From the NCBI GenBank assembly GCA_016935565.1, contig JAFGQS010000006.1, positions 1 to 32,559 on the forward strand: 32,559 nt of DNA, in the 5' to 3' direction. The position numbers were made by a program, and so were the translations under genes. Positions 15,458 to 21,721 of the stretch are shown here, piece by piece (position 1 is the first letter of the stretch; every line of letters starts with the position of its first letter). This DNA comes from Deltaproteobacteria bacterium (GTDB lineage Bacteria > Desulfobacterota > Syntrophia > Syntrophales > UBA6807). The notes beneath the pieces were generated by a model. The model saw only the letters and a list, made by a program, of their open reading frames with translations, had not been told where the DNA came from and ran no database searches.

Positions 15458-15865
15458 CTATGCCTTTTCCGCAACTTTAAGCCGTAACTCTGCGAGATTC
15501 AACCGGTCACTTACCCTTTCATATCCTTCATCTTCCTTTGACATTTTTGACAGTTCCGCTTCAACCGCTGCTTTTTCCTGTCGTGCACTTTCCCTGTCAA
15601 TCAGATCAGCTCGTTCTGCACTATCAAGAAGGACAGTTACTTTGCGAAACAGAACCTCCGCATATCCCTGACCAACGGCATAGTATGTCTTTTTATTATC
15701 CTTCGTATAATTCAGTTCTCCTATTTTAACGGTACTTAACAGGGGCGCGTGGCCGATTAATGCACCAAACTCACCATCGCCACCTGGAATCGTTACCTCT
15801 TCTACATAATCACTGAAAATCATTTTTTCAGGTGTAACAATCTCCAGCATCATCTCTTCAGCCAT
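15458..15865 (-). CDS. atpC: ATP synthase F1 subunit epsilon
   Basis: Epsilon is part of the central rotor stalk and can inhibit ATP hydrolysis. The 135 residues show the N-terminal beta-sandwich (MLEIVTPEKMIFSDYVEEVTIPGGDGEFGALIGHAPLL split as usual) and the two-helix C-terminal domain rich in Glu, Ala and Arg from about residue 88. It starts 21 nt after atpD, ends with TAG and is the last gene before the operon terminator. Confidence 0.97.
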   Translation of the reverse strand: MAEEMMLEIVTPEKMIFSDYVEEVTIPGGDGEFGALIGHAPLLSTVKIGELNYTKDNKKTYYAVGQGYAEVLFRKVTVLLDSAERADLIDRESARQEKAAVEAELSKMSKEDEGYERVSDRLNLAELRLKVAEKA

Positions 15866-15886
15866 TGAACAATCCTCCGGATCTTA

Positions 15887-17386
<1,500 letters not shown>

Positions 17387-18262
17387 TTATCCTTTTGCCA
17401 GGGCCTCAGTACCGCCGACGATATCCATGAGTTCGGCGGTAATTGCCTGCTGCCTCGCCTTATTATATTTCAGGGTTAGATCCCCGATCATTTCTTCGCA
17501 GTTGCTGGTTGCGTTATCCATGGCGACCATCCGGGCACCGTTTTCACCGGCCGCTGTCTCCAGAAGCGACCGGTAGATCATCATCTTGATATATGCCGGA
17601 AGGATTTCTCCTATGATTATTTCTTCCGACGGTTCATAGATGTATTCTACCCGCCTTTCAGGCTCAAGCTCTTCTACAGAGTCAATCGATGGAATGGGAA
17701 GCAACCGTTCAATCTTCGTTCGCTGAACCGCTATATTCCGAAATTCATTATAGGCAATATACAGTTCATCGTATTCCTCATCCATAAAGGATGATATCAG
17801 CATATCCCCGATGCCTGCAGCCAGTCTGAAGTCAAATTGTTTGAAAACATCGGTGTACTTTCCGACAACGTTTTCTTTTCTCCTGAATAAATCATGTCCC
17901 TTTCGCCCGACCGTGACAAGTGAAACTTCTTTACCCTCTTTGACTCTTTCCCGGATGAATCCTTCCGTCGCTCTCATCACGTTTGAATTGAATGCGCCGC
18001 ACAGTCCCCTATCAGATGTCATGCAAATAATTCTCACCTTCTTCGGTTCTCTTACTGCGAGAAGAGGATGCATATCAGGATCGACCCGAACAGCAACACT
18101 ACCGAGGACTTCCATAAACTTTTCTGCATAGGGTCTGAAATTTTCCATTCTCAACTGAGCGCTTTTCAGCTTCGCTGCAGCCACCATATTCATCGCCCTG
18201 GTGATCTGCTTCGTTTTAACAACTCCTTGAATTTTCCGTTTTATATCCCTTAAAGAGGCCAT
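17387..18262 (-). CDS. atpG: ATP synthase F1 subunit gamma
   Basis: Gamma is the rotor shaft inside the alpha3beta3 ring. The 291 residues begin MASLRDIKRKIQGVVKTKQITRAMNMVAAAKL and end with the conserved C-terminal helix around MDNATSNCEEMIGDLTLKYNKARQ. SDRGLCGAFNSNV is present near residue 84. Length is normal. It lies 35 nt after atpA. Confidence 0.97.
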   Translation of the reverse strand: MASLRDIKRKIQGVVKTKQITRAMNMVAAAKLKSAQLRMENFRPYAEKFMEVLGSVAVRVDPDMHPLLAVREPKKVRIICMTSDRGLCGAFNSNVMRATEGFIRERVKEGKEVSLVTVGRKGHDLFRRKENVVGKYTDVFKQFDFRLAAGIGDMLISSFMDEEYDELYIAYNEFRNIAVQRTKIERLLPIPSIDSVEELEPERRVEYIYEPSEEIIIGEILPAYIKMMIYRSLLETAAGENGARMVAMDNATSNCEEMIGDLTLKYNKARQQAITAELMDIVGGTEALAKG

Positions 18263-18297
18263 TCAACCAACTCCCATATTCGTAAATATTCAGATTC

Positions 18298-19812
18298 TTA
18301 CTCGGCGGCAAACACAGTATCAAACTCAGTCAGAACACTCCGTATTTTTCCGTCAAGTTCGTCATTGATGATCTGTTTTTCGTCGATTTCTTTCAATACT
18401 TCAGGATATTTGCTTTTTACAAAGTTCAGGGCCTCAGCTTCATATCGCTTCAAAGCTTCTACCGGATATTTATCAACAAATCCCCTGACTCCCGCAAACA
18501 GGATCAACACCTCTTCTCCCAGAGACATCGGCTGATACTGAGGCTGTTTCAGTAACTCGACAAGTCGAGCGCCCCTGTCCAGTTGCGCCTGGGTTGCTTT
18601 ATCGAGGTCACTTCCGAACTGGGCGAACGCCGCCAGCTCTCTATACTGCGCCAGGTCGAGTTTCAGGGTTCCGGCCACCTGCTTCATAGCCTTCACCTGA
18701 GCGGCACCACCGACTCTCGAAACCGACAGGCCAACGTTGATTGCAGGTCTGATACCTGCGTAGAACAGATCAGGCTCAAGATATACCTGACCGTCGGTAA
18801 TGGAAATAACGTTCGTCGGAATATAGGCGGAAACGTCACCGGCTTGCGTTTCGATAATGGGCAACGCTGTCAGAGATCCGCTCCCCAGCTCTTCGCTTAC
18901 TCTCGCGGCTCGTTCGAGCAGCCGTGAGTGATTGTAGAAAATATCGCCGGGGAATGCCTCACGTCCCGGAGGTCTCCGCAGAAGCAGCGATATCTGTCTG
19001 TATGCAACGGCCTGTTTTGAAAGGTCGTCATAGAGTATCAGAGCATCCTGACCATTGTCACGGAAATATTCACCGATACTGCATCCCGCAAATGCCGCTA
19101 TGTACTGCAGCGTTGCCGGATCACTTGCAGTGGCCGATACGACACAGGTATAATCCATGGCATCGTATTTTCTCAGTGCCTCAACTACCTGGGCAACGGT
19201 CGACTTTTTCTGGCCGATGGCGACATAGATACATTTGACTCCTGTCTCTTTCTGCCTGATGATTGCATCAATACAGATCGCTGTTTTTCCGATCTGTCTG
19301 TCGCCGATGATCAGTTCTCGCTGACCTCGTCCGATCGGTGTCATCGCATCAATGGATTTCAATCCCGTATAGAGGGGCTGATTAACGGGCTGGCGTTGAA
19401 TAACACCGGGTGCAACCATTTCGATTCGCCGTGATAATTTCGTCTCAATGGGACCTTTGCCATCGATCGGAGCACCCGTACCGTCGATAACGCGACCAAG
19501 CACGCCTTCTCCGACGGGAACCTCTGCAATTCTTCCCGTTCTCTTGACTATGTCACCTTCCTTGATGTGCGTATCTTCACCAAGAATGGCAACACCGACA
19601 TTGTCCGTTTCAAGATTCAGCACCATTCCCAATATGCCGCCAGGGAACTCCACCAACTCCATGGCCATGACATTCTCCACACCATAGACTCTTGCGATAC
19701 CATCACCAACGGACAAAATTGTTCCGGTTTCGCTCACATCTAACTTTTTCTCATAATCCTTTATCTGCTTGGAAATTATCTGAGTTATTTCCTCTGCCCT
19801 GATTGCTTCCAT
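18298..19812 (-). CDS. atpA: ATP synthase F1 subunit alpha
   Basis: Alpha is the regulatory, non-catalytic partner of beta. The 504-residue protein has the P-loop GDRQIGKT at 170-177 and the signature-like [23 protein letters not shown] further on. The N-terminal beta-barrel opens with [22 protein letters not shown]-type purines lie just before the ATG and the gene starts 3 nt after the end of atpH. Confidence 0.98.
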
Positions 19813-19815
19813 TCT

Positions 19816-20361
19816 TTACATCTCCTCCCTTAAGAGTTCCCTAATATTGTTTAGCTGGGTTTTTACGCTACCATCATATAAGGTGTCTCCAACTTTCACA
19901 ACGACTCCACCTAATAACGATGTGTCGCGTTCAATTTCCATTTCGACTTTTTTACCGGTAATCTCTTCCATTCGTGCTTTAATCTTTTCAGAAAGCTCAT
20001 CCGATAACTTATAAGCAGATTTTACCTGTATCCTCACCGTATTCAACACTTCGTCCATATAGTACTGATAATAATTCTCGATTTCCTGAAGGACATTGAT
20101 CCTTCTTTTGTCTACTAAAAGCTTTACAAAACTTTCCGTTATCGGAGATACCTCAATCTTCTTCAGCACCTCCGTTACAACGGCTACCTTATCAGATTGA
20201 GCAAACATAGGATTGTTTAAGAAATCTTTAAGATTTGCATTTTGCTCAAGAAGAGAAGAAAAGCTTTTAAGTTCATTGTAGTATTCTTCGTACCTCAACT
20301 CTTCCTTGGCTATCGCAAAGAAAGCCCTGGAATAACGTTTCGCAATTTCGCTCCCTCTCAA
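19816..20361 (-). CDS. atpH: ATP synthase F1 subunit delta
   Basis: Delta links F1 to the b/b' peripheral stalk (OSCP homologue). The 181 residues show the helical N-domain starting SEIAKRYSRAFFAIAKEE and the C-terminal domain ending SLLGGVVVKVGDTLYDGSVKTQLNNIRE, both typical. Its ATG overlaps the atpF stop by 4 bp (ATGA), implying translational coupling. Confidence 0.96.
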   Translation of the reverse strand: MRGSEIAKRYSRAFFAIAKEELRYEEYYNELKSFSSLLEQNANLKDFLNNPMFAQSDKVAVVTEVLKKIEVSPITESFVKLLVDKRRINVLQEIENYYQYYMDEVLNTVRIQVKSAYKLSDELSEKIKARMEEITGKKVEMEIERDTSLLGGVVVKVGDTLYDGSVKTQLNNIRELLREEM

Positions 20362-20972
20362 TTTCGCTTCACCATCCTATCTATAAAGTCTGTAACCATA
20401 CTGTCATGATCATTTTTCTTAATATTCTTTTTTAAGATCGCTTCAGCCATCTGGACGGAAAGTTCAGTTGCTTCCGCCCGTAATTCATTTTTCATTTTTT
20501 TGAATTCCTGATCCATGCGCGATTTTGCATCTTCTTTCATTTTGTCTGCGGCTCGTCTGGCATCTTCGATGATTTTTTCTTTCTCTGCCAGGCCCTGTGC
20601 GTGAATCATCTGTGTAATATCCTCAATCTCTCCTCTCGCTTCTTCCAGTTTAGCGGAATACTCTTCAAATTTTTTCTGAGCAGCTTCTTTTTGTTCAATA
20701 GCCGTCTCTAATGATTCTTTAATTGTCTGGCGGCGTCCCACAAAAAAGCCCTTGATTCCCTTTGCAGTGAGCTTATACAAAATAGCAACAAGGATTATGA
20801 CATTTAAAGACTTCCAGCCAAAATCAATCAGTTTTTTCGTGCCATGGCCTTCCGCCTCTCCACCACCTGAAGCATACACAATGGCACCGGTCATCAATAA
20901 AAATAACACCGCCGGCAAAAAAGAATGTAACAAAAATCGTTTTGAGAGAATGTCCGTTAAAATTCTTTTCAT
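20358..20972 (-). CDS. atpF: ATP synthase F0 subunit b
   Basis: The b subunit forms one half of the peripheral stalk and anchors it in the membrane. The 204-residue protein has two hydrophobic stretches. The first (about 12-35, ending IVYASGG) looks like a cleavable signal or extra helix; the second (about 55-70, SLNVIILVAILYKL) is the stalk anchor. A long charged coiled coil runs from about 80 to the end. The N-terminal extension is common in this lineage's b subunits. It overlaps atpF' and atpH by 4 bp at each end. Confidence 0.93.
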   Translation of the reverse strand: MKRILTDILSKRFLLHSFLPAVLFLLMTGAIVYASGGGEAEGHGTKKLIDFGWKSLNVIILVAILYKLTAKGIKGFFVGRRQTIKESLETAIEQKEAAQKKFEEYSAKLEEARGEIEDITQMIHAQGLAEKEKIIEDARRAADKMKEDAKSRMDQEFKKMKNELRAEATELSVQMAEAILKKNIKKNDHDSMVTDFIDRMVKRN

Positions 20973-21397
20973 TGAATGCTCCTCCCTAAAACCTTTTCAG
21001 AAATCTCTCGAGATATTTTTTCTGATTGACTTTTCAAAATTTTTCTTGCATCCGTCAATTCTTTGTTGAGCTTTTTCTTGAAATCTTCGATAATTTCCGA
21101 AATCTCACTTCGTGCTTCTCCCATTATTGCTTTACCATCTTCGGCCGCTTTCTGCTGAACTTCATTTCTTTCGTTCATTGCTTCCTGCCTCGCCTGGCGA
21201 AGCTTATCCTCATAATCGGCCATTTTTTCATCAACCTCAGTTTCAAGAGATTTTACTTCTTCATCCAGATCTTCAAGTCGTTTTTTCCTTCCCTCAATGA
21301 CTCCCAAAATCGGTTTAAAAAGAACTACATTCAACACAAAAATCAGAATAAGGAAGTTTGCCATCTGAATCCAAACCGTCGAATTTATCTCAACCAT
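20969..21397 (-). CDS. ATP synthase F0 subunit b' (second b-type subunit)
   Basis: This second peripheral-stalk subunit has 142 residues. It has one N-terminal membrane anchor (about 9-29, WIQMANFLILIFVLNVVLFKP) and then an almost uninterrupted acidic/basic coiled coil to the C-terminus. A b'/b pair usually implies a heterodimeric stalk. It is the first gene of the operon. Genes for the a and c subunits are absent here, so F0 is completed from another locus. AGAGGT precedes the ATG. Just upstream lies a strong terminator hairpin (21419-21455) that every incoming transcript must cross. Confidence 0.92.
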   Translation of the reverse strand: MVEINSTVWIQMANFLILIFVLNVVLFKPILGVIEGRKKRLEDLDEEVKSLETEVDEKMADYEDKLRQARQEAMNERNEVQQKAAEDGKAIMGEARSEISEIIEDFKKKLNKELTDARKILKSQSEKISREISEKVLGRSIQ

Positions 21398-21418
21398 TAC
21401 CTCTCACCTCTACAAGAC

Positions 21419-21455
21419 AAAAAAAAACCGAGTTCCTATAAAAAACAACCCGGTT
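21419..21455 (-). terminator. Intrinsic terminator/attenuator directly before the ATP synthase operon
   Basis: On the minus strand AACCGGGTT (21455-21447) pairs with AACTCGGTT (21434-21426) over 9 positions with one G-U. A 12-nt loop separates them and at least seven T follow the stem. Only about 20 nt remain between the T-run and the atpF' start codon, too little for a promoter. It could end the mreB-bactofilin transcript, but it must also be crossed by RNA polymerase to reach the atp genes, so partial termination or attenuation is likely. Confidence 0.8.
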
Positions 21456-21456
21456 A

Positions 21457-21543
21457 TCAAGAATTGACTAACACTCCTACCACGGCAGATAGAGCCATTT
21501 GCTCAGTATCAATAACTACTTTATAATCCCTAACGTTCCTCAC
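21457..21543 (-). CDS. Possible 28-codon leader peptide upstream of the atp operon
   Basis: A short ORF starts at GTG 21543, with AAGGA 7 nt upstream, and ends with TGA at 21457-21459, only 2 nt before the 5' arm of the terminator hairpin. The peptide (begins MRNVRDYKVVIDTEQ, ends VGVLVNS) is valine-rich, with 8 of 28 codons. A ribosome finishing this ORF would cover the terminator's first arm and prevent folding. The frame stays open a further 11 codons upstream with TTG and CTG alternatives. I infer a transcription attenuator; chance or the remnant of an older gene are alternatives. Confidence 0.4.
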   Translation of the reverse strand: MRNVRDYKVVIDTEQMALSAVVGVLVNS

Positions 21544-21721
21544 CAACAGATCCTTCAATAATACTTCTCAAGAACGGGGACTACTAAGCATAACTCTCAA
21601 ATGTTGTCAAGTATTTTTTATCCATATCAACGATGATATTATCAAAAACCTCCCTGCATGAACTGGTGGTTAATCTTATTTTTTTCATACGGTTACGAGT
21701 CGTGAATTACCAATTACCATA
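21544..21721 (-). promoter_or_regulatory. Intergenic region between bactofilin and the atp leader; promoter candidates
   Basis: A consensus -35 box TTGACA lies on the minus strand at 21605-21610, but the sequence 16-18 bp further (CTTAGTAG) is a poor -10. A second candidate slightly upstream is TTGATA-17 bp-GATAAA. One of these probably starts the atp transcript about 50-100 nt before the leader ORF. No gene was found here. Confidence 0.35.

Follow-up and report, generated by a model that had tools for sequence, protein, structure and literature searches.

A putative ribosome-occlusion attenuator in the leader of the F1 ATP synthase operon of Syntrophales

The ampC attenuator of E. coli has a short leader, a minimal start-stop element, on which a ribosome relieves the terminator to a degree that scales with growth rate. 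In the pyrBI operon of E. coli an intrinsic terminator lies between the promoter and the first gene, and the ribosome suppresses this terminator directly, with no antiterminator. A pause site and a dependence on UTP are features of this system. The pyrBI terminator sits within the leader ORF (PMC4824070). When a stop codon was relocated in E. coli to a site 5 bp ahead of an intrinsic terminator, the efficiency of termination fell from ~90% to <10%; uncoupling translation abolished the effect (PMC4824070). Little repression was seen for a terminator placed 30 bp past the start codon, and the authors extend this argument to the first 100 bp of a coding sequence (PMC4824070). In amino-acid attenuators, >20 bp separate the leader ORF from the terminator (PMC4824070). 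In the mgtCBR leader of Salmonella a short leader ORF couples the ATP level to transcription attenuation (PMC3641672); this leader relies on alternative stem-loops and two ORFs, and its response to ATP needs adenines in mgtM.

Here we analyze the leader of the F1 ATP synthase (atp) operon in the order Syntrophales. Like that of pyrBI, it has a predicted intrinsic terminator that separates the promoter from the first gene, and a leader ORF that overlaps or abuts the terminator, and it serves a nucleotide-related pathway; direct suppression of the terminator by the ribosome, with no antiterminator, is what we propose for it. It differs from pyrBI in gene and phylum and in its ORFs, which are 19–51 codons long and mostly end just before or inside the hairpin; the pause site and UTP dependence are traits of pyrBI. 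A ribosome on a short leader relieving a terminator, as in ampC, is likewise part of our proposal, although the atp leader ORFs are much longer than the ampC element and the gene encodes a core energy enzyme. A short leader ORF and (putatively) attenuation are shared with mgtCBR, but alternative stem-loops, two ORFs or mgtM-type adenines were not seen in the atp leaders. With the trp and his attenuators the leader has an ORF and a terminator in common; it lacks their regulatory codon run and antiterminator, and its stop codon is much closer to the hairpin.

Leader-ORF attenuation of the occlusion type is thus a known mode of control, and it is its apparent occurrence at an atp operon that would be new. 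Within the open-access literature (most subscription papers being outside the scope of the search) we found no attenuator of the leader-ORF type on an atp operon, in agreement with a preliminary description of this DNA. Few enzymes are as conserved or as heavily expressed as ATP synthase, and little is known of how its amount is controlled in energy-limited anaerobes (syntrophs). A conserved leader-ORF attenuator would tie the supply of the enzyme to the distance at which the ribosome follows RNA polymerase.

Anatomy of the leader in the window

The window is the whole stretch of 32,559 nt that was analyzed, on a contig from a 3.06-Mb draft genome. Translations and gene order give the sequence mreB, mreC, mreD, mrdA, rodA and bactofilin on its minus strand, followed by the F1 operon atpF′-F-H-A-G-D-C. 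No genes for the a and c subunits were seen beside this operon in the ORF list of the window. The features of the leader are collected in Table 1.

Table 1. Features of the atp leader and operon in the window
Feature	Position	Strand	Description	Basis
atp promoter-like element	21582–21610	−	TTGACA 21610–21605, TATGC 21592–21588, TTAGTA 21587–21582	
Shine-Dalgarno (SD) sequence of leader ORF	21551–21555	−	AAGGA, 7 nt before GTG	sequence; SD-led ORFs in excess of shuffles
Leader ORF	21457–21543	−	GTG 21543, 28 codons (VRNVRDYKVVIDTEQMALSAVVGVLVNS), TGA 21459–21457	sequence; counterparts, with variable peptide, in most terminator-bearing families
Intrinsic terminator (predicted)	21419–21455	−	stem AACCGGGTT (21455–21447) / AACTCGGTT (21434–21426), 9 bp including one G-U; 12-nt loop; T-run to 21419	sequence and relatives
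atpF′ ribosome-binding region	21399–21410	−	GAGGTGAGAGGT	sequence
atpF′ (b′ subunit)	20969–21397	−	first gene of operon	ORF table; relatives via protein search
F1 operon	15458–21397	−	atpF′-F-H-A-G-D-C	

The preliminary description had named a 9-bp stem with a T-run ~20 nt before atpF′, a 28-codon ORF with an AAGGA motif and a stop near the hairpin, and a consensus −35 box further up. All of these are present. The ORF stops 1–2 nt before the stem, and the T-run is separated from the ATG of atpF′ (21397) by 21 nt. Two in-frame TTG codons (21558 and 21546) might serve as the start instead. The −10 box of the promoter-like element is atypical (extended −10-like), and from the sequence we estimate that transcription starts at ~21575, i.e., ~180 nt before atpF′. 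A further promoter overlapping the hairpin (TTGATA-14-TATAGG), also pointed out earlier, is not kept in genomes G001 and G002, where the hairpin has a different sequence at this place, and we do not retain it.

A consensus scanner for promoters and terminators listed neither the promoter nor the hairpin in the window. This scanner admits loops of ≤8 nt and demands a TATAAT-like −10; it misses the two elements because the loop has 12 nt and the −10 is not TATAAT-like. When the leader of the window was folded as a single sequence the result was not significant (z = −1.6). One genome is therefore a weak case, and conservation was tested. Given the comparative data, the predicted attenuator-like arrangement is well above chance.

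Promoter and terminator across Syntrophales

The order of the genome was taken as Syntrophales, giving a comparison set of 155 genomes. A protein search found AtpF′ in 148 of these, and 146 regions upstream of atpF′ were assembled for comparison. Most Syntrophales genomes have a near-identical promoter element (about TTGACAAGnnnnnnnAGTTATGATTAGTA) 5′ of atpF′, usually at a distance of 200–230 nt. A regulator site may lie within its conserved AGTTATGATTAGTA part. Conservation of this atp promoter element is unusually high in the order, and two genomes scanned for its pattern showed it to be nearly unique; the window genome contains the atp copy and one looser match, and genome G096 the atp copy only.

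In most members of families f16 and f5 the promoter lies 97–160 nt before atpF′, and the ORF and terminator are absent. This nearer position, without the ORF-terminator unit, marks the element as the atp promoter. The full arrangement has been lost in these two families and mostly in f12, and the order offers a comparative series that includes families that lost ORF and terminator but kept the promoter.

A hairpin followed by a T-run is present in many of the leaders. Most end 25–50 nt before atpF′ and some up to ~90 nt; among the relatives the gap from terminator to atpF′ is only about 20–90 nt. The terminator sits between promoter and atpF′, with little room for a second promoter. Outside the CCG core the pairs of the stem vary between G-U, A-U and G-C. 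Promoter and hairpin were found together in 60 leaders, from which two (G083 and G084) were dropped since their "hairpin" amounted to only −1.2 kcal/mol. The remaining 58 leaders of the order thus have a promoter, then a predicted intrinsic terminator, then the first structural gene.

Could the terminator serve only to end transcription of the upstream cell-shape genes, lying near atpF′ by chance, with the ORF as noise? Bactofilin and rodA are indeed upstream on the same strand as the atp operon, and intergenic terminators are common. However, the conserved promoter lies downstream of the cell-shape genes and upstream of the terminator, and atp transcription from this promoter must therefore cross the terminator. 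Moreover, at three loci of family f21 (L096, L104 and L108) the promoter directly follows the end of the rodA-like gene, with no bactofilin between, and the ORF is enriched only where the terminator is present (see below). We consider this explanation very unlikely.

The leader ORF

An ORF was scored if it had an SD sequence of ≥4 bases, ≥18 codons and an end at −15 nt or later relative to the hairpin. Such an SD-led ORF reaching the hairpin occurs in 39 of the 58 leaders, where 8.5 are expected from dinucleotide shuffles. Allowing a 3-base SD gives 45 leaders (16.5 expected), and requiring no SD gives 51 (35 expected). When one genome was taken per family the mean was 10.7 of 17, compared with 2.6 expected (median p = 5 × 10−6, worst draw p = 0.0015), in statistics that ignore finer relatedness. 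Leaders of ≥150 nt that lack the terminator show no such excess, with an ORF in 5 of 41 and 3.5 expected. Among SD-led ORFs of ≥5 codons, 39 of 47 end at or past −15 nt of the hairpin. The conservation of ORF and hairpin that the preliminary description had proposed to look for in relatives is thus seen in the 58 leaders with promoter and terminator and the 39 with the ORF. A terminator with no clear ORF is found in G003, G004 and members of f12.

For descriptive purposes one ORF was picked by hand in each of 55 leaders (the entry for G021 begins at a non-start codon); the statistics rest on the shuffle tests. The start codon is GTG in 32, ATG in 13 and TTG in nine of these. Relative to the start of the hairpin, 26 stop codons fall at −12 to 0, 18 at +1 to +23 and 11 beyond, such that 44 of the 55 lie within −12 to +23 nt. 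The start codon precedes the hairpin by 71–99 nt, and in G024 and G118 this distance is still 88–90 nt despite a longer 5′ part of the transcript. In seven f15 leaders the stop is held at one site, with TAA, TAG and TGA interchanging.

Members of a family retain the reading frame but differ in residues, with pN/pS = 0.64–0.87. This constraint on the peptide is weak, and the case for translation therefore rests on frame, SD and position. A small conserved protein was rejected in view of the variable peptide and the pN/pS values.

Promoter, small ORF and terminator might nevertheless be a small gene or small RNA in their own right, and atp might be expressed from a different promoter or through a fixed level of partial readthrough. 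In favor of this, promoter and terminator both belong to the unit, and in several families the hand-listed peptides share a loose similarity near codons 8–9 (often R, then Y or F). Yet the peptide is otherwise hardly conserved between families, the same promoter directly precedes atpF′ in f16 and f5, and the gap between terminator and atpF′ is short. A separate gene or RNA is in our judgment unlikely.

Proposed mode of action

We propose that the leader is probably a transcription attenuator of the F1 operon that acts via ribosome occlusion. On our analysis the spacing between stop codon and hairpin is of the occluding kind, and the mode is most likely pyrBI-like occlusion, not amino-acid sensing. 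Transcription would begin ~180 nt before atpF′, and a ribosome would load on the mini-ORF, mostly at a GTG start, and trail RNA polymerase. Were the ribosome close behind as the polymerase passed the hairpin, it would cover the 5′ arm, or more of the hairpin where the ORF runs into or across it; the terminator would then stay unfolded and atp would be transcribed. With the ribosome lagging or not loaded, the hairpin would fold and transcription would halt just before atpF′. What the sequences establish is the anatomy, its conservation, the joint occurrence of ORF and terminator, and the spacing of stop codon and hairpin; translation of the ORF, termination at the hairpin and the sign of the effect are inferences. 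The signal would be the gap between ribosome and polymerase, set by translation capacity or by nucleotide-dependent polymerase speed. The arrangement suggests that ATP synthase output is tuned by how closely ribosomes trail RNA polymerase; a link to translational capacity and a dependence on polymerase speed are both possible.

The hairpin lies 71–99 nt past the start codon, within the 100-bp stretch for which little repression is argued (PMC4824070); this counts against the proposal, and a pausing device may therefore be needed. With such a need, the system would respond to how fast ribosome and polymerase move relative to each other. One could imagine an energy sensor, in which low NTPs would slow or pause the polymerase in the leader, the ribosome would catch up, the terminator would be disabled and more ATP synthase would be made. 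If true, what it costs to produce the mRNA of the ATP-making enzyme would control that enzyme, but we regard this extension as rather doubtful.

In classic amino-acid attenuation the ribosome would instead stall at regulatory codons and select an antiterminator. A leader ORF and a terminator are present, the ORF of the window is valine-rich, and a link to amino-acid supply formed part of the preliminary description. However, the richness in valine is confined to the window, and no codon run is shared among the 55 leader ORFs. Nor is there a conserved antiterminator; pairing of the 5′ arm of the hairpin with upstream RNA was 0.53, compared with 0.56 in shuffles. The stop codons, 1–2 nt from the hairpin or inside it, contrast with the spacing of >20 bp in amino-acid attenuators (PMC4824070). 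We find this mechanism extremely unlikely. The amino-acid part of the earlier proposal finds no support, while its core, attenuation through translation of the leader ahead of atp, is supported by the conservation in most families, by ORF enrichment confined to leaders with the terminator, and by the stop-to-hairpin spacing.

Control of the terminator by a ligand- or protein-sensing RNA element, akin to a riboswitch, would be consistent with a conserved stem (GUUUUGAGUAU / AUAUUCAAAAC) in some f12 leaders. Against this, a search of the window against Rfam gave 0 matches at the gathering score, and outside f12 the leaders have no conserved alternative pairing and no structure in excess of shuffles (family mean z = −0.01). 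These null results argue against an antiterminator or riboswitch, and we take such an element to be highly improbable. With no antiterminator and no excess structure, simple occlusion fits.

Hairpins were also sought at 35 loci from an atpA scan; L056 lies within the order and the other 34 lie outside it. The atpF′ starts were misplaced in several, making this a partial survey. At the threshold used, 28 of the 34 outside loci had no hairpin. Of the six that did, L028 and L064 (hairpin >270 nt upstream), L074 (140 nt upstream), L057 (hairpin at 41 nt, with a weak T-run) and L019 (hairpin at 40 nt, with no similar promoter element) were no match by eye. At the sixth, L053, from the Desulfobacterota outside the order and with its atpF′ start misplaced, a hairpin and T-run lie ~110 nt after a TTGACA near atpF′. 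So far, on this partial survey, the arrangement is limited to this order.

Two families contain additional stems. In the f15 leaders (G092–G098) a 9-bp stem joins GGAGCAAA ahead of the start codon to UUUGCUCC within the ORF, and G096 has a paired change; this is a candidate pause or RBS hairpin. In the f12 leaders (G034–G057; loci L196, L223, L226 and others) the promoter is ~210 nt before atpF′ and the ORF is mostly missing. Many of them share the stem GUUUUGAGUAU / AUAUUCAAAAC near the 5′ end, a different conserved stem that is seen in members of genera g23–g24 and is possibly a different regulatory RNA.
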